Notes under the pieces: model-generated
Seen by the model: the letters and a program-made list of their open reading frames with translations, nothing else
Told to the model about the DNA's origin: nothing
The model's database searches: none
In this document: piece by piece, positions 879 to 16,332 of the stretch
Numbering within the stretch: position 1 is the stretch's first letter
Layout: each line of letters begins with the position of its first letter
Assembly: GCA_016188575.1 (NCBI GenBank)
Contig: JACPHN010000117.1
Coordinates: 1 to 16,332 of the forward strand
Source of the DNA: Candidatus Schekmanbacteria bacterium
Lineage (GTDB): Bacteria > CSSED10-310 > JACPHN01
Direction of reading: 5' to 3'
DNA length: 16,332 nucleotides
Position numbers and translations under genes: made by a program

Positions 879-1388
879 GTGCAGGTGCTGCTCCCGGCAA
901 GCATGGTGCAGACCGCCTGGCGCTGGGGAACGACCTCGATTTCCTCCAGACTCGCGAGGGTCGATGTCGAGCGCATCCGCAAGGATGTCGTCGCCACGCC
1001 GCTGATTCCCCAGGACGCGGCGATCGTCAACCTCACCGGCAACGAGCTGACCCACGCGGTCGGCATCGACGACCATGACGACAGCCCCGCCCCCTGCCCG
1101 CCGCCGCCGATAACCTGTGACACGGCGACCAGCGGGCTGCGGCTGCGATCCGACCTGACAGACGGCCAAATGTGCCTGCTCCGCAGAAAGGCGAGCGGAG
1201 ACCGCTGTATGCAGCGAGATATCGTGTTGTTTTTCTACTGCGCCTACGAAAAAAACCCCGGCCTCCCCGACTACACCGCGGCCATGAATCGCATCGCGGA
1301 CAACCTCGTCTGCAACTCGGCGCGGGACCACTGTCGCGACGAGATCGACATCAGTTTTCCACCGGCATCGCCGACCCGCGCCGGATGA
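879..1388 (+). CDS. Unrecognised Cys-containing protein; 5' end unclear, possibly frameshifted
   Basis: GTG 879 is the only ATG/GTG/TTG start in this frame after the stop at 666-668. AGGAGAG at 862-868 could serve as its ribosome binding site. However, the frame upstream of 879 (about 777-878) already has coding-like, G/C-ending codons (for example DGDIRKELTGQDLVINPY). An ATG at 755, five bases after the previous gene's stop, is in a different frame. Joining the two would need a one-base shift near 780-790, so the annotated protein may be too short at its N-terminus. The C-terminal half has a Pro-rich linker (SPAPCPPPPITCD) and six cysteines in pairs (around PCPPPPITC, QMCLL, DRCMQ, FFYCAY, LVCNSARDHC). 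I see no catalytic motif and do not recognise the family. It ends 32 bases before an IS110 transposase scrap, so its 3' end may also be altered. Confidence 0.5.
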   Translation: MQVLLPASMVQTAWRWGTTSISSRLARVDVERIRKDVVATPLIPQDAAIVNLTGNELTHAVGIDDHDDSPAPCPPPPITCDTATSGLRLRSDLTDGQMCLLRRKASGDRCMQRDIVLFFYCAYEKNPGLPDYTAAMNRIADNLVCNSARDHCRDEIDISFPPASPTRAG

Positions 1389-1420
1389 AACGGACGGCCT
1401 CGCAACTCGAGTTTCCTATT

Positions 1421-1659
1421 AGGAGCTGGTTGCGACGGCAGCCGCGGAGAGGAACCGCCTGCACAGGGTGCTCGATGCCTGCGGGATTCGTGTGGGGGCG
1501 GTCGTCAGCGACATCCAGGGCAAGACCGCCAGGCAGACGGTCCAGGAGATCATCGCAGGGGAGTCGACTCCTGAGGAGATCGCCAAGCTCAGTCAAGGAC
1601 GACTTCGCGCTCCCGAGCAAGTGCTCGTGGCGGCGCGCGAAGGCCACGCTCGGAATTAG
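1421..1659 (+). pseudogene. IS110-family transposase, internal fragment
   Basis: From about 1423 the frame reads ELVATAAAERNRLHRVLD, then VVSDIQGKTARQTVQ and EIAKLSQGRLRA. This is the pattern of the middle of IS110-family transposases: a helical linker (ERNRLxxVLED), a small-residue SDI.G.SGR motif and a GRLR motif. A full IS110 transposase is usually 300-450 residues, with an N-terminal DEDD nuclease domain and a C-terminal transposase_20 domain. Only about 78 residues are left here. The frame is bounded by a TAG at 1420 and a TAG at 1657-1659, and similarity fades after GRLRAPEQVLVAAREG. The catalytic Asp/Glu residues and the catalytic Ser region are absent, and no element ends can be recognised. 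It is a dead scrap, not an active element. A GTG at 1468 could start a 63-residue peptide, but there is no reason to think it is made. Confidence 0.75.
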
Positions 1660-1744
1660 GGGGTGGGGTGTTTTTGTCTCATCGCCGCTCGGCCCAACCG
1701 TGCTTTCATGGTAATCCACCGGCGTTCGGCGCGGGGGCACTGCT

Positions 1745-2517
1745 TCAGGACGCCGCCCGCCCGGTTACCGCGCTGGCCGTAGCGCCATGTCCCTCGGCGT
1801 GCCGTCCCCGCTGATCGCTCAGCCCCGCGATCACCGGGAGCAAGGCCGCTGCCGCCAGAAAGAGCCGCGCCCCGTCGGTGACCTCGGACTGAATGATCCC
1901 GGCGAGCGCGAGCAAGGTCGCGCCCGGAAGCGCCGCCGCTGCCCACGAGCGCTCCGCGCCGGCGCGCAGCCCCGCGGCCCCGAGTGCCAACAAGCCGCAT
2001 ACCGCCGTCACGTCGAAGATCGGCGAGCCGCCCGAGTGCACGTGCAGAAACGGCGCCGAAACCGCCACCAGCAGCCCGTTCCAGCGCGCCTGCGCGAAAA
2101 TCACGGGTGCCGCCGGCAGCAGCGGGAGCAGCAGCAACCGCGTGGTTCCATATCGCGACCTCACCGAGCCGTCGGGCAAGCCGCTGTTGATCCCGAGCAA
2201 CAACGCTGCGGCCGTCGCGGTTACGTGGAAGCTCGCCCATGCTTGCTCCGGGTCGCGCGCTCCCGGCAACCCGGTGAACAGCGCGACGTCCAATAGCGCG
2301 AGCAGTGCCCCCAAGAACGCGACTCTGGAGCTGCCCACGGCAGCGCCGAGCCCCGCGGCCAGCGTCCAGCTCGCATACGCCGCCGCGCGCAGCGCTACCC
2401 CGTCCGCGATCCCGAGCGCCGCGGCGTCGTGAACCATCCAGATCGCCAACAGGAGCAAGGCGCCGACCATCCCGGCGCTCCCTCCTCGCACCACCAGTCG
2501 CGCCAGTCGCCGCTCGC

Positions 2518-2521
<4 letters not shown>
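1745..2521 (-). CDS. Small multi-pass integral membrane protein
   Basis: This 258-residue protein is dominated by hydrophobic segments, at about residues 13-35, 44-62, 66-84, 95-112, 127-145, 166-184, 193-210 and 218-234. That gives seven or eight likely membrane helices. The N-terminus is short and basic ([14 protein letters not shown]), and the C-terminus is hydrophilic and His/Gly-rich. Conserved-looking polar positions inside the membrane region include a His in LHVHSGGSP and an Asn in GINSG. I do not recognise the family. The GTG start (2521-2519) overlaps the stop codon of uvrB in the sequence GTGA, so translation is probably coupled to uvrB and the gene belongs to the plsC-uvrB transcript. 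A role in DNA repair is not implied by the sequence. The opposite strand has open frames here, but they are shadows of this high-GC gene. Confidence 0.75.
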
Positions 2522-4613
<2,092 letters not shown>

Positions 4614-4617
<4 letters not shown>

Positions 4618-5336
4618 GAATCAGCTCCAACCAATGCCGGCATGAGCAGCTCCTGGATCGCCCGTCGCGTTTCAAGCGTGAGCTCCTCGCGGCCGGCAAA
4701 TGCCACCGAATCGGCGCCAATGGGGTAGCCGATGCGGAGCCGCACGGGTCCGGGGCGGAGGCGCATGGTATCGGCCGGGAGCACATGTTCGGTGCCCAAA
4801 ATGGCGACCGGCAACACGTCCAGATCCGCCTCGATCGCGGTCACCGCCGCGCCTCTCTTGAACGGCAGGAGCTGATCGGTTCGACTCCGCGTCCCCTCGG
4901 GGAAGAACAGGAACGAGGCCCCGGCAATTCGGTGCCGCACGGCTTCGCGAATCGAGCTCATGGCACGCGTGGAGTTGTGCCGATCGATCGGGACCATTCC
5001 GAGAGCGCGAATTCCCTGGCCGAAAATGGGGATCGCGAACAGCGCCTTCTTGGTAGCGAATCTCAGGGGCATAGGCATGCCGGCCATGAGCACGGGAATA
5101 TCGAGCAGGCTGCGGTGGTTGGCGACAACCATGTAGCAGGTGCCGCTCGCGACGTTCTCGCCCCCCTCCACGGTGAGCGCGATGCCGCTCAGGCGTACGA
5201 TCGCCCGCGCCCAGGCCCGCGCAACCCGATAGGCGTGAGGCCGCGCCCGCGCACCGAGCAGACCGAGCACAATCACGCTGAGACCATGGACGATTGTCAG
5301 GAGCACAACGGCGGTAGCGACGAAGACCGCTCTCAT
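4614..5336 (-). CDS. plsC: 1-acyl-sn-glycerol-3-phosphate acyltransferase (PlsC type)
   Basis: This membrane-bound enzyme transfers a fatty acyl group to lysophosphatidic acid to give phosphatidic acid, the precursor of bacterial phospholipids. The 240-residue protein has the acyltransferase blocks: NHRSLLD with the catalytic HX4D pair H74/D79, the glycerol-phosphate binding FPEGTRS (F145-R150), and the VPIDR block at about 115-119. An N-terminal hydrophobic helix lies at residues 3-28. The frame is open further upstream to 5639, but that stretch is Arg/Pro-rich translation of intergenic DNA and of a dispersed repeat. The ATG at 5336 is chosen because it begins the hydrophobic helix and is preceded by GGAGAGG at good spacing. 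A promoter-like pair lies about 75 bases upstream. The gene overlaps uvrB by four bases (GTGA), so it leads the plsC-uvrB-membrane protein set. Confidence 0.93.
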
Positions 5337-5412
5337 GGCGCACCTCTCCAGAAATGCCAGGGGCACGCATGCGGCGCGGGAAAACCGCTGCCGGCGAACA
5401 CGTTCGCGCGAT

Positions 5413-5441
5413 GGTATACACTGGTCGCGTCGCGGAGGCAA
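5413..5441 (-). promoter_or_regulatory. Predicted sigma70-type promoter for plsC-uvrB
   Basis: Read on the minus strand, TTGCCT (5441-5436) is followed after exactly 17 bases by TATACC (5418-5413). Each hexamer matches its consensus at four of six positions. Transcription would start near 5406, giving a leader of about 70 bases before the plsC ATG. The same layout (TTGC/TTGA, 17 bases, TATA-like) recurs ahead of several other genes in the window, which adds some weight. It is a motif match only. Confidence 0.5.
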
Positions 5442-5460
5442 GAGCGGACCGGGCGGCGTC

Positions 5461-5521
5461 CTCCATTCCTCCCCCCGCTTGCAGGGGGGAGGTGACGTGG
5501 GGGGTCTTCGTGATGCGCTTT
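5461..5521. repeat. Dispersed repeat, copy A, with perfect 9-bp palindrome
   Basis: This 61-base stretch matches 12201-12260 at about 53 of 61 positions (seven mismatches and one gap), in the same orientation. In this copy the left part forms a perfect hairpin: CCTCCCCCC (5468-5476) pairs with GGGGGGAGG (5484-5492) around a 7-base loop. The right part holds the conserved block GTGGGGGGTCTTCG. It lies between the 3' end of the beta-propeller gene and the plsC promoter, outside any credible coding frame. It resembles REP-type intergenic repeats. There is no T tract, so I do not call it a terminator. Confidence 0.75.
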
Positions 5522-5547
5522 TCGCGCGCCTCGCCTGCGTGGCGCGC

Positions 5548-6696
5548 CTAGCTGCCCGCGCGGACCTCGGCGTGCCAGATCTGCTGCACCCCCGACTCGT
5601 CGCTTCCGTAGTACACGACGTGCACCGTGCCACCGGCATCGGTGGCCATGCGCGGCATGTCGCCGGCCCCGGAGCTGACCGCCAGCTCGCCCGCGTGCGG
5701 CGCTACACTCGCGGCAACGGATCCTTCGGGCGTGGTCCAGGCGACTACCTCACGGTCATCGGGAAGAAACGCGAGCTCCGGCGACATCGCGTATCCGGTG
5801 CGGCGCGCCACCCACACCGGCGCTGCGTCGGCCTCGGCCATCGTCACGATGCCGAACGCATAAACGTCGTTGGGATCCTGCTCCGTCCACGTCCACCGCG
5901 GCACACCGCGGCTGTCGACGGCGCCACCGACATCGTCGGAAGAGAGCCCCGAGCTGCGATACAAGGTGCGCTCGCGACCCCAGCCGGCGCTTGCGGTCCA
6001 GTCAAAGAGGCGAATGTCGTAGCCCTCGTCGCCGGCTGACGTGGCGAGTGCGAGTCGCAAGCCGCCGCTGACGCCGAGCACCTTGAGGCGAAAGCTGTTG
6101 ATATACGGCTCGCTGACCGCAATGGCCCCACCTGCGACCCAGGACGACCCGTCAAAGATGTAGTGCACCGGGTAGCGATTTTGAAAGAAAACGGCGTGAA
6201 GCCGGCCGTCTCCGCCCTTGGCGGCGCTGATGAGGCTGCCCTCGGCCACGGGCTGGGCGGGCGACCAGTCACCGTGCTCGAGGACCGCGTGATAGATTTC
6301 CGCCGTGCTCGTCTGGTAGCTCTCCCACAGCAGGTGCAAGCGCTCGCCGTCAGCGACAAGTGCGGGCCGGATCGACTTCCCGGCGAGCAGCGCCAGTGGC
6401 TCGGCGCGCCAGCCGCCATCCCCAGACACCGCGTAGTATAGAGACGCCGGGTCCAGGCTGAAATCGTGCCAGGCAATATGAACGCTGCCATCGGGCAGGC
6501 ACGCTACCGCGGGGGTTTTCGCGTTGCCGGGGGTCGCGGCGACGACCTCGGGCGCGGTGATGGAGACCGTGTCACTGGCGGCGGGCGAAAGCAGGGCCAG
6601 AGGAGCCGCGCCGAGGGACGGTGTGGCCGAGAGGAACAGCGGGGTGAACGCAAGAAGCTGAATCCAGCGGTTGCATGAGGAGACCCCCGGTCGCAC
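5548..6696 (-). CDS. Secreted beta-propeller-like protein (sialidase-like fold)
   Basis: The mature part consists of repeated units of the form P-x-hydrophobic-A-x-D-x-x-G-x-x-H-hydrophobic-x-W/Y, for example ACLPDGSVHIAWHD, ALVADGERLHLLWES, AAKGGDGRLHAVFF, GAVDSRGVPRWTWTE and ATDAGGTVHVVYYG. About six or seven such units span the protein, as in six- or seven-bladed propellers of the sialidase/BNR superfamily. The true Asp-box S-x-D-x-G-x-x-W is not seen and no catalytic set can be named, so the role may be binding. A hydrophobic segment (LLAFTPLFLSATPSLGAAPLA) near the N-terminus looks like a signal peptide. The start is uncertain. I chose GTG 6696, just before that segment, giving 382 residues. 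An ATG at 6832 is also in frame, close behind a promoter, but would read through a palindromic repeat. No good ribosome binding site precedes either. The neighbouring divergent gene also encodes an exported protein. Confidence 0.75.
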   Translation of the reverse strand: MRPGVSSCNRWIQLLAFTPLFLSATPSLGAAPLALLSPAASDTVSITAPEVVAATPGNAKTPAVACLPDGSVHIAWHDFSLDPASLYYAVSGDGGWRAEPLALLAGKSIRPALVADGERLHLLWESYQTSTAEIYHAVLEHGDWSPAQPVAEGSLISAAKGGDGRLHAVFFQNRYPVHYIFDGSSWVAGGAIAVSEPYINSFRLKVLGVSGGLRLALATSAGDEGYDIRLFDWTASAGWGRERTLYRSSGLSSDDVGGAVDSRGVPRWTWTEQDPNDVYAFGIVTMAEADAAPVWVARRTGYAMSPELAFLPDDREVVAWTTPEGSVAASVAPHAGELAVSSGAGDMPRMATDAGGTVHVVYYGSDESGVQQIWHAEVRAGS

Positions 6697-6890: not shown

Positions 6891-7063
6891 CTATTATGCC
6901 GTACACTTGCTCCTCCGCCCTGGCACTGCAGGCGCAGCACGCTGGCATCCCCGCCGGTCGCGCTTTCGGCCTGGGTGCGACGTTCCCGTCACGGTGTGCT
7001 CGCCTTGTGTGGCCCAGCCGGCGCACTCGCCTGCTGCCCGCACGACCGGGATCGCCCGCGACC

Positions 7064-7092
7064 TTGCCGCCCGTCTCCCGCTCCGTTATGCT
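7064..7092 (+). promoter_or_regulatory. Predicted promoter for the M1 peptidase gene, start point at the ATG
   Basis: TTGCCG (7064-7069), a 17-base spacer and TATGCT (7087-7092) form a sigma70-like pair, each four of six to consensus. The usual start point, about seven bases after the -10 element, falls on 7099, which is the A of the chosen ATG. No Shine-Dalgarno-like sequence precedes that ATG. Both facts fit a leaderless mRNA. Confidence 0.5.
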
Positions 7093-7098
7093 CTCTGC

Positions 7099-9519
7099 AT
7101 GAACATGTCCTCGCCCCCTCCCAACAGAGCCTCACCCCTCGCCGCATCGCGGCCGCGACCTCGCTCCTCCTTCTCGCTCCTCGCGGCGGCGCTCGTGCTC
7201 GCCCACGTCGGCGCCGGCGCGCCTCGGGCGTGGGGCGGCTCGCCCGCTGCGTCGCCGGATCACCCCTACCGACTCGTCTACGAATCGCTCCTGGGCTGGA
7301 AATTCTCTGCGTCGCCCATGCCGATCGAGCATCCTCCTGTCGCGTGGACGTGGGGAGCCGCCCACTTTGAGCTGCTCGGCGGGAGCCTCCGCAGCATGGA
7401 GCCGGAGGGCGGTGGCATGGTGACGGGTCTCGCCTTCGAGGGGCGCGCCAGGCTGACGCTGGCGCCGTCCACGGACGGCGAGCGGCGCCAATTGGCGCGC
7501 TTCTCCGGAATGCCGGAGGGGACGCTCGTCGATGATGCAGAGCGGATGGTATTGCGCTTTTCGGGGCCCGCGTGCGCGGGACCTCCGGCGCGGTCGGAGC
7601 CCGGCCCGCTTGCTCCGGTGCGGTGGGTAACCGCGCTTCACGAGGAGTGGCTCGAGATGTTCGGCGTTGACGTCGACGCTCGCGTGGTGCGCGGTATGCT
7701 TGTTCCCGGCGCTGACTACTGTCGCGCGGCACTCAAGACCAAGCATCACGGCTGGTTGGTCGTCGAGATCGACCGGCTGCGACCCGAGGTCTTCCGCGTC
7801 GAGCGACTCTTTCCGCGCACCGGCCTGACCGAGGTGTGGGTGAGCGAGCCGATGCCGGCCGCAGATGTCGCTGCCGCGGACGTGGTCGACCTCCAGCACG
7901 CCGACATTACCGCCGTCGTCGAGCCCAACTTCATGGGCGACAAGCTCGGCAAGAGCGCCACGCGCACCGTGAAGGCAACGTTCACCGTTACCCTCACCCT
8001 GACAGCGGCGCGCGACGGCCTCCGCGCCCTGCCTCTGTGGCTCGACCCCGCCGCAAAGGTCTCCCAAGTATCGACAGGCACCGGGGAGGTGTTGTCTTTC
8101 CTCCGCTATCCCCGCGGGCCCAAGTTCGCGTCAGTCGATGACCGCGTTTTCGCTCCCGATCTCACGATTCTGCTAAAAAAAGCCGTGTCCGCCGGCCAGG
8201 AGCTGGCGGTGACCGTCACCTATGACATGGAGCTCGCCAACTACGTTTCCGGCCGGCTCTGGTACCCGGGCGCCATGGACCCTCTCGGCGACCCCCATAC
8301 CGCCACGTTGCGCATCGATGTCCCGGAGACGTTCTCGGTGCGAGCGACGGGGGATCTGGTAGCATCTACGGAGGCCGAGGGCGGCAGAAAAACGACGCGA
8401 TGGGCGGTGGCGCGCCCCTCGCGCCTGGTCGCGTTCACCTTTGGGAAGAAATTCTACGAGCATGCCGCACCCGTCGCCGACGGCGCCGAGGTGATCGCCT
8501 TCGGCGTCGATCTCGGCGTCGGTGGAGGGGACGCGGTCACCCACGTCGCTCAAGATGTCGCCGCGAGCCTGAAGTTCTATCAGGATCTGCTCGGCATCAG
8601 CCTGCCGGCGCGTCAGCTCTGGGCGACGAGCATCGCCGCCCCCCACGGCCAGGCCTTTGACGGCCTTCTGCAGCTCTCTGAGCGGACGTTCTACAACGAA
8701 CGCGCGGGAGTCTCGACCTTGTTTCGCGCTCACGAGACCGCGCACCAGTTCTTCGGCCTCGGCATCGGCTGGAGCGGTTACCGTGATCAGTGGCTCAGCG
8801 AGTCCCTGAGCGAATACGCGGCGATGATGTTCCTCGCGGACAAGTACCCGGAGGAGCGCTACTTCGAGGAGATCCTCGACGTCTACGCGGCCCAGCTCAC
8901 CGGCTCGATAAACTCCGCCGGCAGCCCCTTCGCGCGGCCGGGGCTCATCCGCATCCCCTCCAAGTTTCTCGCGCGGCTGGGACCCATCGGCGTCGGTTAT
9001 CGCGCCGACACCGCAGACCTCCCTGCGGGATACTTCATGCAGACGTATCACAAGGGGCCGTGGGTTCTTCACATGCTTCGCGCCATCCTGGAGCGTGATC
9101 ATCCCGGCGCGTTCGTCGCCGTCTTGCGCGAGCTCGTGCAAACATTCTGGCAACAGCGCGTTTCCACCGCCAACTTTGCGGCGATCGCCGAAAAGCACGC
9201 AAAGGCAGATCTCGGGTGGTTTTTCTCGGAGTGGATTGACGGCACCGCGATCCCTACCTATCGGTGGAAGTGGCGCCTGTTGCCGCCGCCGGCAGCCGGG
9301 CCGCGGCAGCTCGAGCTCATGGTGAGACAGGAGCGCGCCCCCGAGGACTTTCGCATGCCTGTGCCCGTGTGCATCGAGTACGATGACGGGGAAAACCAGC
9401 TCGAGGTTGTGACCGTTTCCGGCGAGACCACGACGGCCGTCTTGCCGGTGCGCGCTGCTCCCACGGACGTCGAGCTCGCCTGCGGCCGGGCGGTGCTCGC
9501 CGTCGTCAAGGAGCGCTAG
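7099..9519 (+). CDS. Exported M1-family zinc metallopeptidase
   Basis: M1 peptidases are zinc aminopeptidases that remove N-terminal residues from peptides. The 806-residue product shows the zinc site HETAH (H545, E546, H549) followed 18 residues later by the third ligand E568 in WLSESLSEY, the family's HEXXH-X18-E. Tyr650 in TYHKG sits where the transition-state Tyr is expected. The usual GxMEN exopeptidase motif is not present: the corresponding stretch (about 520-528) reads FDGLLQLSE, so substrate choice may differ from typical aminopeptidases. The N-terminus has a basic, Ser/Pro-rich start, then SLLAAALVLAHVGAGAPRAWG, a plausible signal peptide. A beta-rich domain (about 270-400) precedes the catalytic domain. 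ATG 7099 (or 7105) is chosen over an upstream in-frame start at 6907, because the extra residues look non-coding and the signal peptide then falls near the N-terminus. A predicted promoter ends seven bases upstream. Confidence 0.92.
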   Translation: MNMSSPPPNRASPLAASRPRPRSSFSLLAAALVLAHVGAGAPRAWGGSPAASPDHPYRLVYESLLGWKFSASPMPIEHPPVAWTWGAAHFELLGGSLRSMEPEGGGMVTGLAFEGRARLTLAPSTDGERRQLARFSGMPEGTLVDDAERMVLRFSGPACAGPPARSEPGPLAPVRWVTALHEEWLEMFGVDVDARVVRGMLVPGADYCRAALKTKHHGWLVVEIDRLRPEVFRVERLFPRTGLTEVWVSEPMPAADVAAADVVDLQHADITAVVEPNFMGDKLGKSATRTVKATFTVTLTLTAARDGLRALPLWLDPAAKVSQVSTGTGEVLSFLRYPRGPKFASVDDRVFAPDLTILLKKAVSAGQELAVTVTYDMELANYVSGRLWYPGAMDPLGDPHTATLRIDVPETFSVRATGDLVASTEAEGGRKTTRWAVARPSRLVAFTFGKKFYEHAAPVADGAEVIAFGVDLGVGGGDAVTHVAQDVAASLKFYQDLLGISLPARQLWATSIAAPHGQAFDGLLQLSERTFYNERAGVSTLFRAHETAHQFFGLGIGWSGYRDQWLSESLSEYAAMMFLADKYPEERYFEEILDVYAAQLTGSINSAGSPFARPGLIRIPSKFLARLGPIGVGYRADTADLPAGYFMQTYHKGPWVLHMLRAILERDHPGAFVAVLRELVQTFWQQRVSTANFAAIAEKHAKADLGWFFSEWIDGTAIPTYRWKWRLLPPPAAGPRQLELMVRQERAPEDFRMPVPVCIEYDDGENQLEVVTVSGETTTAVLPVRAAPTDVELACGRAVLAVVKER

Positions 9520-15025: not shown

Positions 15026-15940
15026 ATGCGGAAACTGTCGGTCGGTCTACTGGCATTGGCTTTCGCTGTCGCCATGGGCGCGTTTTTTGGCCCGGCGGCG
15101 CGAGCCGACAACGAAACCCACGTCTACGGCATCGCCGAGTACGACGACTCCGGCCAGTGCGTCGCCGGTGAGCACTCGGTGCACACCGATACGGCAAACG
15201 CCTTTCTGGACGTGTTCGAGGACCTCAAGTCGGATGGCGACTGGGATTCGACCGTGACGCGCAACAACTCCAACGGGCACGGTAGCTATTGGACCGATAG
15301 CGGCAAGGCTTCGAGCTGCGTATGCGAGTCGTACCAATCCTCGTGCTCCTGCATCGGTGTCGACACCTCGTCCAACCTGGGCGCGGACGAGGCGGACGTC
15401 ATCTACATACATACCCACGGCGGTTCGAACTACAGCTCATCCAGCCCGAGCTACTCCAGCCTCATTCTCGGGAACAAGAACACCGACTGCAAACCCCGCA
15501 CCGACCAGAACATGCTGTGGGGAAACTCTCCGGGCGATCTGGACATCGCGGTGATCAAAGCCTGCCAGGGTTCACAATACGAGGTCTTCAAGAATGGCGG
15601 CTACTGGAGCATGACGAACAGCAGCAGCACGTTTCGCATGTGGAACGGGTTTCACGGAAACTCTTCCTGCGGTAGCCACGTGACCAGCTATGTCGAGGAC
15701 TACGCCGAGGATTCCGTTTACAACGGCGTCGGCGAAAACTGGCTCGACGAGGCTTATGACTGGTGGGGCGACGACGATTGCCCGACCTCGATCGTGTTCT
15801 GCAGCACCAAGTCGAATTGCGAAAGCATGTATGAATACGGCGGTTGGCTCGACCGCAAGGATACCGGAACCAAATCGACGTCGTACATGTGGTACATCGA
15901 AGGCTGCGATCCCGAAGCTGGCCAGGAGCTTCCGAGCTAG
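15026..15940 (+). CDS. Exported Cys-rich protein with a caspase-like His-Gly/Ala-Cys pair
   Basis: The 304-residue product starts with a clean signal peptide (about 1-27, LLALAFAVAMGAFFGPAARA). The mature protein has 12 cysteines and is rich in Ser, Asn, Gly and Tyr, typical of a disulfide-bonded extracytoplasmic protein. A hydrophobic strand followed by His-Gly (VIYIHTHGG, H131-G132) and a second strand followed by Ala-Cys (DIAVIKACQGS, A179-C180) match the order and spacing (His to Cys 49 residues) of the clan CD His-Gly...Ala-Cys dyad of caspase-, gingipain- and legumain-like peptidases; caspases read QACRG at the Cys. A further His-Gly lies at 210-211 (WNGFHG). I believe this belongs to an uncharacterised family (possibly the one called DUF6345), but this is from memory. 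Peptidase activity is inference. A second exported protein starts 34 bases downstream. Confidence 0.85.
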   Translation: MRKLSVGLLALAFAVAMGAFFGPAARADNETHVYGIAEYDDSGQCVAGEHSVHTDTANAFLDVFEDLKSDGDWDSTVTRNNSNGHGSYWTDSGKASSCVCESYQSSCSCIGVDTSSNLGADEADVIYIHTHGGSNYSSSSPSYSSLILGNKNTDCKPRTDQNMLWGNSPGDLDIAVIKACQGSQYEVFKNGGYWSMTNSSSTFRMWNGFHGNSSCGSHVTSYVEDYAEDSVYNGVGENWLDEAYDWWGDDDCPTSIVFCSTKSNCESMYEYGGWLDRKDTGTKSTSYMWYIEGCDPEAGQELPS

Positions 15941-15974: not shown

Positions 15975-16332
15975 ATGATGAGATTGATGCGATCCGTTTT
16001 CGAGACAGTTGCCGTCACCTCGTGCGTCGCCCTCCTCGCCGCCGTCCCCGCGCGGGCGGAGCGCGGCGCTCCCGCCGCCCCCAGTGCCATTACCTTCGAT
16101 CTTACCGACCTGAGCAAGACGCCGGCCGACGTCGCGCCGGCGGTCGCGCTGAAAAGAGAGGCGTTCCAGGCGACCAACCTGGCGAAGCAGATCCTGGAAA
16201 CCGACCAGACGTTCACGGCGATCGGCAAGCTGCGAAACCGGGAGCAGCTCGAGTCTACGGACTGGTACATGGAGCTCGACAACCTGAAGGGCCACGCGCT
16301 CCTGATTTCCAAGAACCCGGACGGCGCCCCGG
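15975..16332 (+). CDS. Exported protein, N-terminal part (3' end outside window)
   Basis: The frame starts at ATG 15975 (15978 is also possible) and stays open to the window edge, giving 119 residues. AAAGG about seven bases upstream is a fair ribosome binding site. The N-terminus is basic then hydrophobic (MMRLMRSVFETVAVTSCVALLAAVPARA), a likely signal peptide cut after ARA; a lipobox is not evident. The mature start is Ala/Pro-rich, then helical (VALKREAFQATNLAKQILE), with DWYMELDNLKGHALLISKN near the edge. It contains no Cys after the signal region so far. I do not recognise the family. It is 34 bases downstream of the Cys-rich caspase-like gene on the same strand, with no terminator between, so the two are probably co-transcribed and both products leave the cytoplasm. 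Antisense frames here are shadows. Confidence 0.8.
   Translation, partial: MMRLMRSVFETVAVTSCVALLAAVPARAERGAPAAPSAITFDLTDLSKTPADVAPAVALKREAFQATNLAKQILETDQTFTAIGKLRNREQLESTDWYMELDNLKGHALLISKNPDGAP

Follow-up and report, generated by a model that had tools for sequence, protein, structure and literature searches.

A putative clan CD cysteine peptidase from a divergent DUF6345 branch, encoded beside an FTP-type partner gene in Candidatus Schekmanbacteria

The window, by which we mean the whole stretch of DNA analysed here (16,332 nucleotides; contig JACPHN010000117.1 of Candidatus Schekmanbacteria assembly GCA_016188575.1), closes with two consecutive forward-strand genes for exported proteins, the second of which is cut by the contig end (Table 1). 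The first, referred to below as the target, is a genuine gene, with an AGGAGG preceding its ATG at 15026 and an open reading frame of 304 amino acids. The original prediction had described an exported, cysteine-rich product with 12 mature cysteines, in which His131-Gly132 and Ala179-Cys180 lie 49 residues apart, and the translation agrees with it on every position and on the spacing: the protein carries a Sec-type leader, followed by cysteines at residues 45, 98, 100, 107, 109, 155, 180, 215, 252, 259, 265, and 294. It had overlooked the second gene, which starts at 15975 and belongs to a family of FTP-type partners (FTP, fungalysin/thermolysin propeptide). Elsewhere in the window, positions 6907–9519 encode a large exported protein that carries HETAHQFFG with a Glu further downstream and resembles an M1-type metallopeptidase.

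Table 1. Coordinates of the target gene, its predicted functional elements, and the adjoining partner gene within the window
Feature	Positions	Strand	Basis or remark
Target gene, divergent DUF6345-like, putative clan CD cysteine peptidase with predicted dyad H131/C180	15026–15940	+	Open reading frame with AGGAGG; paralogues at 62% and 37%; dyad invariant (n = 30)
Sec signal peptide, residues 1–27, inferred cleavage ARA/DNE (ARA/DNETH)	15026–15106	+	By eye from translation
H131-G132 codons, predicted catalytic His, final residue of predicted strand b3	15416–15421	+	
A179-C180 codons, predicted nucleophile Cys, final residue of predicted strand b4	15560–15565	+	
H210-G211 of GFHG motif, end of predicted strand b5	15653–15658	+	Invariant in window branch, missing from other DUF6345 groups
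Partner gene, 5' part (119 codons), exported	15975–16332	+	34 nt past target stop; cut by contig end before FTP motif; homology E 1e-20 and 2e-13 to full-length partners

Three paralogues of the target are encoded in the same 9.2 Mb genome, two of them at 62% (L002) and 37% (L003) identity and the third more distant (L004), and relatives at 29–56% identity (L005–L009) occur in Plesiocystis pacifica as well as in metagenome-assembled genomes that bear the labels Gemmatimonadetes and Myxococcota. Among 329 genomes of the Plesiocystis phylum, members of the window type were found in 11 and matches to DUF6345 (PF19872) in 14, the two sets overlapping; the profile used for the window-type search included L004, while the PF19872 matches on L004, L056, and L057 are independent of that profile. 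No relatives were found in the seven other genomes of the window's own phylum, nor in the plasmid and viral contig collections, and the target is thus, as far as these collections show, not a gene of mobile elements. The window protein itself, searched directly against Pfam, NCBIfam, and PDB sequences, gave no match, which holds for PF19872 itself and, up to E 10, for PF00656 (C14) and PF01364 (C25, gingipain). The link to DUF6345 comes instead through its relatives and through profiles: the paralogue L004 (32.4 bits) and the relative L056 (30.8 bits), both of them members of the window-type set, exceed the PF19872 cut-off of 26.9 bits, and hhalign comparison of the window branch with two DUF6345 groups and with their merger returned probabilities of 95.0, 95.8, and 97.9%, with the His-Gly and Cys columns aligned. 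The window protein is thus a distant branch of the DUF6345 superfamily, a Pfam family of unknown function that is also present in several bacterial phyla and in the archaeon Methanosarcina acetivorans, which served as a control genome. The two share membership of one superfamily by profile-profile comparison, the same invariant H-G...C, and the same FTP-type partner, as a neighbouring gene or a fusion, whereas the window protein differs in having no direct PF19872 match, an additional GFHG, conserved cysteines at 45, 155, 252, and 294, and a CxC...CxC insertion. The proposal of an undescribed family accordingly survives in part: the function is uncharacterised, and we found no mention of DUF6345, PF19872, or IPR045926 in the papers searched, but the family itself is already listed in Pfam.

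The His-Gly and Cys motifs prove little when taken alone, because a scan of the open reading frame segments of at least 150 amino acids in 12 loci for a hydrophobic run, HG, a spacer, a second hydrophobic run, and [AST]C matched 15 of 316 segments, of which about 10 are true family members and about 5 are chance matches, a chance rate of some 1–2% of long segments. With about 5 such matches per approximately 300 segments, the motif was dropped as sole evidence. It is conservation that lifts the pair above the chance level. In a joint alignment of 30 diverse members drawn from all groups (438 columns), H131 and C180 are the sole columns conserved in 30 of 30 sequences, as had been asked of them, followed by G132, D121, and W239 in 29 each, the exception at G132 being an HA in L060. 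The arrangement by which clan CD is recognised, His before Cys with conserved His-Gly and Ala/Ser/Thr-Cys pairs after hydrophobic strands, is therefore seen in this set. Columns invariant among the 15 sequences of the window branch include C45, D121, D124, H131, G132, C155, D171, C180, H210, G211, W239, C252, and C294; H210 loses its invariance once the alignment is widened to all 30 members, and the His of GFHG was ruled out as an alternative catalytic residue on account of its lack of conservation beyond the window branch.

Cysteine counts bear on whether C180 is available as a nucleophile. In the paralogue L003, C180 and the four universal residues are the only cysteines, a total of five that is consistent with two disulfides plus one free thiol, and parity leaves C180 unpaired in several relatives. 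An additional cysteine, C215 (15668–15670), lies in the SSCG that follows GFHG, just past predicted strand b5, and is specific to the window's lineage; it makes the cysteine number odd there, so that a C180-C215 disulfide is possible, and such a bond could be redox-sensitive. The objection that C180 might sit in a disulfide is thus weakened for several relatives and retains some force in the lineage of the window.

Two AlphaFold models, built from different query sequences with six sequences each (the window and related loci), agree on a helix a1, followed by one strand that terminates at the His and another that terminates at the Cys, and then by b5-a4-a5-b6, although both are of low confidence (pLDDT 37.4 and 37.8; pTM 0.41 and 0.44). 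In both, the elements follow the caspase order b3-b4-b5-a4-a5-b6, with the His as the last residue of b3 and the Cys as the last residue of b4; neither model shows an evident helix a2, and the residues separating H131 from C180 are predicted to be coil. In the caspase/haemoglobinase fold the two dyad residues lie at the C-termini of b3 and b4, with a spacing of 42 residues between His144 and Cys186 of caspase-7 (PMC4357240). Foldseek ranked a caspase or paracaspase first for both models (best E 0.027 and 0.013, none significant), and the second list holds caspases or MALT1 at all of ranks 1–23, while the first also contains flavodoxin-like folds. With VIA-align, the 50 best entries were clan CD structures for both models, headed by the SAVED-CHAT structure 8tl0 (Z 8.6 and 9.2; rmsd 3.6 and 3.8 Å; 168 and 167 residues), with caspases reaching Z 8.4 and 8.5 and procaspase-1 (3e4c) Z 8.0 and 8.5; as the PDB is rich in caspases, the purity of this list weighs more than its length. 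In hhalign comparison with a profile of C14 (metacaspase) homologues, HG fell on HG and C on C, with scores of 22.7–25.2, above all 60 shuffles (maximum 13–17) and the reversed control, at a probability of 2–5% that is not significant alone; comparison with C25 homologues did no better than shuffles, and C25 was ruled out as the closest family. Both of the checks proposed at the outset therefore favoured the prediction, though with limits. The profile search yielded the DUF6345 link and a C14 alignment in register but a low C14 probability and nothing for C25, and the models place the His and Cys at strand ends and find their best matches in clan CD, yet the caspase/haemoglobinase fold is indicated, not shown, because of a pLDDT of 37–38.

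The 2025 review of clan CD in MEROPS lists eight families, namely C11, C13, C14, C25, C50, C80, C84, and C123 (PMC12445089). Membership was compared for C14 and C25, and the target has not been placed in any of the eight; it may be regarded as a candidate new clan CD family with a separately encoded propeptide-like partner. With C14 (caspases, paracaspases, and metacaspases) it shares a His-Gly and then a Cys ending successive strands at a similar spacing, the predicted order of strands and helices, and the best structural matches, but it differs in having no Pfam C14 match, in being exported with cysteines that would form disulfides, and in a partner encoded in trans. SAVED-CHAT, the best VIA-align match, has no sequence match to the target, and we know of no CHAT proteins that are Sec-exported and cysteine-rich. 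The C25 gingipains are likewise exported bacterial clan CD peptidases, but for them the profile comparison stayed at shuffle level. A separate observation concerns Plesiocystis pacifica, in which the gene pair of L009 is preceded on the same strand (1140–5903) by a gene with a CHAT-like C-terminus (AGHGTHRG...SGCETA) and by a subtilase-like gene.

The gene that follows the target is a near-constant companion of the family. Full-length homologues of the partner combine a long N-terminal region with an FTP motif in the C-terminal half; the fragment in the window ends before this motif, which is predicted for it from the homologues. The partner family as a whole aligns with FTP domains at E 2.4e-6 (hhalign score 49.6, with shuffles reaching at most 12.5), the reference set consisting of 20 sampled PF07504 matches, 18 of which lie in frames with HExxH; one member, the L003 partner, exceeds the PF07504 gathering score, and a PDB search with the partner profile gave no match. 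All four copies of the target in the 9.2 Mb genome keep the partner, and the full-length partner family occurs there solely beside target genes. In 31 of 35 loci an FTP-type partner with statistical support lies next to the target or is fused to it; L064 has one after an intervening gene, and L056, L057, and L061 have a same-strand exported gene of marginal similarity to the partner. Two relatives are target-partner fusions, including L072, whose C-terminal part aligns with the stand-alone partner L040 (E 1e-8), and L060, the best DUF6345 match, carries a weak FTP-like stretch (E 8e-4) on its N-terminal side. The reverse search with the partner in the 329 genomes gave 12 matches at E < 1e-19, each of them adjoining a known target; among the three that followed, G327 is likewise next to a known target, and L184 lies behind a new protein with an HG...C pair, a relative of L068 (E 5e-25) that neither target profile had detected. 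The third, L183, is an FTP-like stretch adjoining an FG-GAP-type open reading frame, with no visible DUF6345-like gene.

Several further features of the partner loci were noted. A lipobox-like site lies near the N-terminus of 10 of the 30 partners scanned (L006, L007, L052, L055, L063, L065, L066, L068, L071, and L073), and in about one third of relatives the partner, but not the peptidase-like protein, may therefore be anchored in the membrane. At L064 (reverse strand; oriented positions 1803–2567 and from 3888), the FTP partner lies between two related genes for exported proteins similar to FGE/sulfatase-modifying factors, and one of these genes separates it from the DUF6345 gene. In the genome of the window, two equal-scoring 45-amino-acid fragments match the C-terminal end of the partner family (G000:C20:1-129 and G000:C130:29932-30060; L140 and L141); the former, at a contig start, may be the remainder of a partner gene interrupted at a contig end, perhaps the window's own.

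Known systems offer partial parallels. The FTP propeptides of thermolysin- and fungalysin-type metallopeptidases (PF07504) share the FTP motif but act in cis, N-terminal to a zinc peptidase, whereas here the motif is encoded by a separate gene beside a His/Cys protein. The SpeB-Spi and staphopain-staphostatin operons (PMC3462683) set a precedent in that neighbouring genes encode an exported cysteine protease and its cognate inhibitor, although those proteases have a papain-like fold and Spi and the staphostatins are cytoplasmic, in contrast to the partner here, with its own export signal and FTP motif.

Taken together, the conserved His-Gly/Cys in clan CD order, the clan CD-like models, and the near-constant propeptide-type neighbour point to an exported clan CD peptidase with a partner as the best reading, and we consider it reasonably probable that the target is a Sec-exported clan CD cysteine endopeptidase of a divergent DUF6345 branch, paired with a trans-acting propeptide-like partner. 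In such a protein, H131 at the end of b3 would activate C180 at the end of b4, disulfides would stabilise the enzyme outside the cytoplasm, and the partner, acting in trans, would serve as a propeptide-like chaperone and/or inhibitor that holds the enzyme inactive until release, sitting on the membrane in the third or so of relatives with a lipobox-like site. The earlier idea of an exported clan CD-like cysteine peptidase thereby gains support from the invariant dyad and from the models (pLDDT 37–38), with activity as a prediction. Sequence analysis establishes the export-type leader, the universal His-Gly/Cys pair, the link to DUF6345, the conserved pairing of the genes, and the FTP identity of the partner family; from these we infer that the target is an active peptidase and that the partner regulates it, and an inhibitory role is drawn by analogy, since FTP domains are known from metallopeptidase propeptides.

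The role of the partner is where the most serious alternative arises, namely that the clan CD fold and dyad are as proposed but the enzyme regulates itself, the FTP partner being a secretion or folding factor or a membrane anchor. The lipobox-like sites would suit an anchor, the long N-terminal region leaves room for functions beyond the short FTP motif, and FTP/PepSY propeptides of metallopeptidases also serve as folding aids; we nevertheless think this unlikely, given that the motif otherwise occurs here in propeptides, as the HExxH-bearing frames of the PF07504 sample indicate. A caspase fold might also house something other than a peptidase, whether a binding module or another thiol chemistry such as that of a ligase or transpeptidase, and clan CD does include ligase-active enzymes such as legumain (PMC8491156). 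Strict conservation of the dyad over 30 divergent sequences argues against a degenerate fold, however, and a propeptide-type partner points to proteolysis, so that such a role appears distinctly improbable.

Least probable of all, to the point of being very doubtful, is a different fold altogether, in which the His and Cys would belong to a metal site or to another hydrolase and the likeness to caspases would be a by-product of poor alpha/beta models. The low pLDDT, the absence of a significant Foldseek E-value, and the flavodoxin-like folds in the first list are what such an explanation would lead one to expect, but the agreement of two models from different queries, the unbroken run of caspases or MALT1 in the second list, and the in-register alignment of both motifs with the metacaspase profile, above all shuffles, speak against it.

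If the preferred reading of an exported clan CD peptidase with a propeptide-like partner is true, a Pfam family of unknown function, spread over several bacterial phyla and Methanosarcina acetivorans, gains a testable active site, and clan CD acquires one more family in addition to the eight in MEROPS (PMC12445089). We would extend this, at somewhat less than an even chance, to the whole DUF6345 superfamily as unrecognised exported cysteine peptidases of clan CD whose prodomain is now an FTP-type protein in its own right, encoded alongside, one propeptide module thus serving zinc peptidases in cis and cysteine peptidases in trans. The motif that FTP propeptides of zinc peptidases carry would then work with cysteine peptidases too, and control of the FTP type would be unusual as a means of folding or restraining a cysteine protease.
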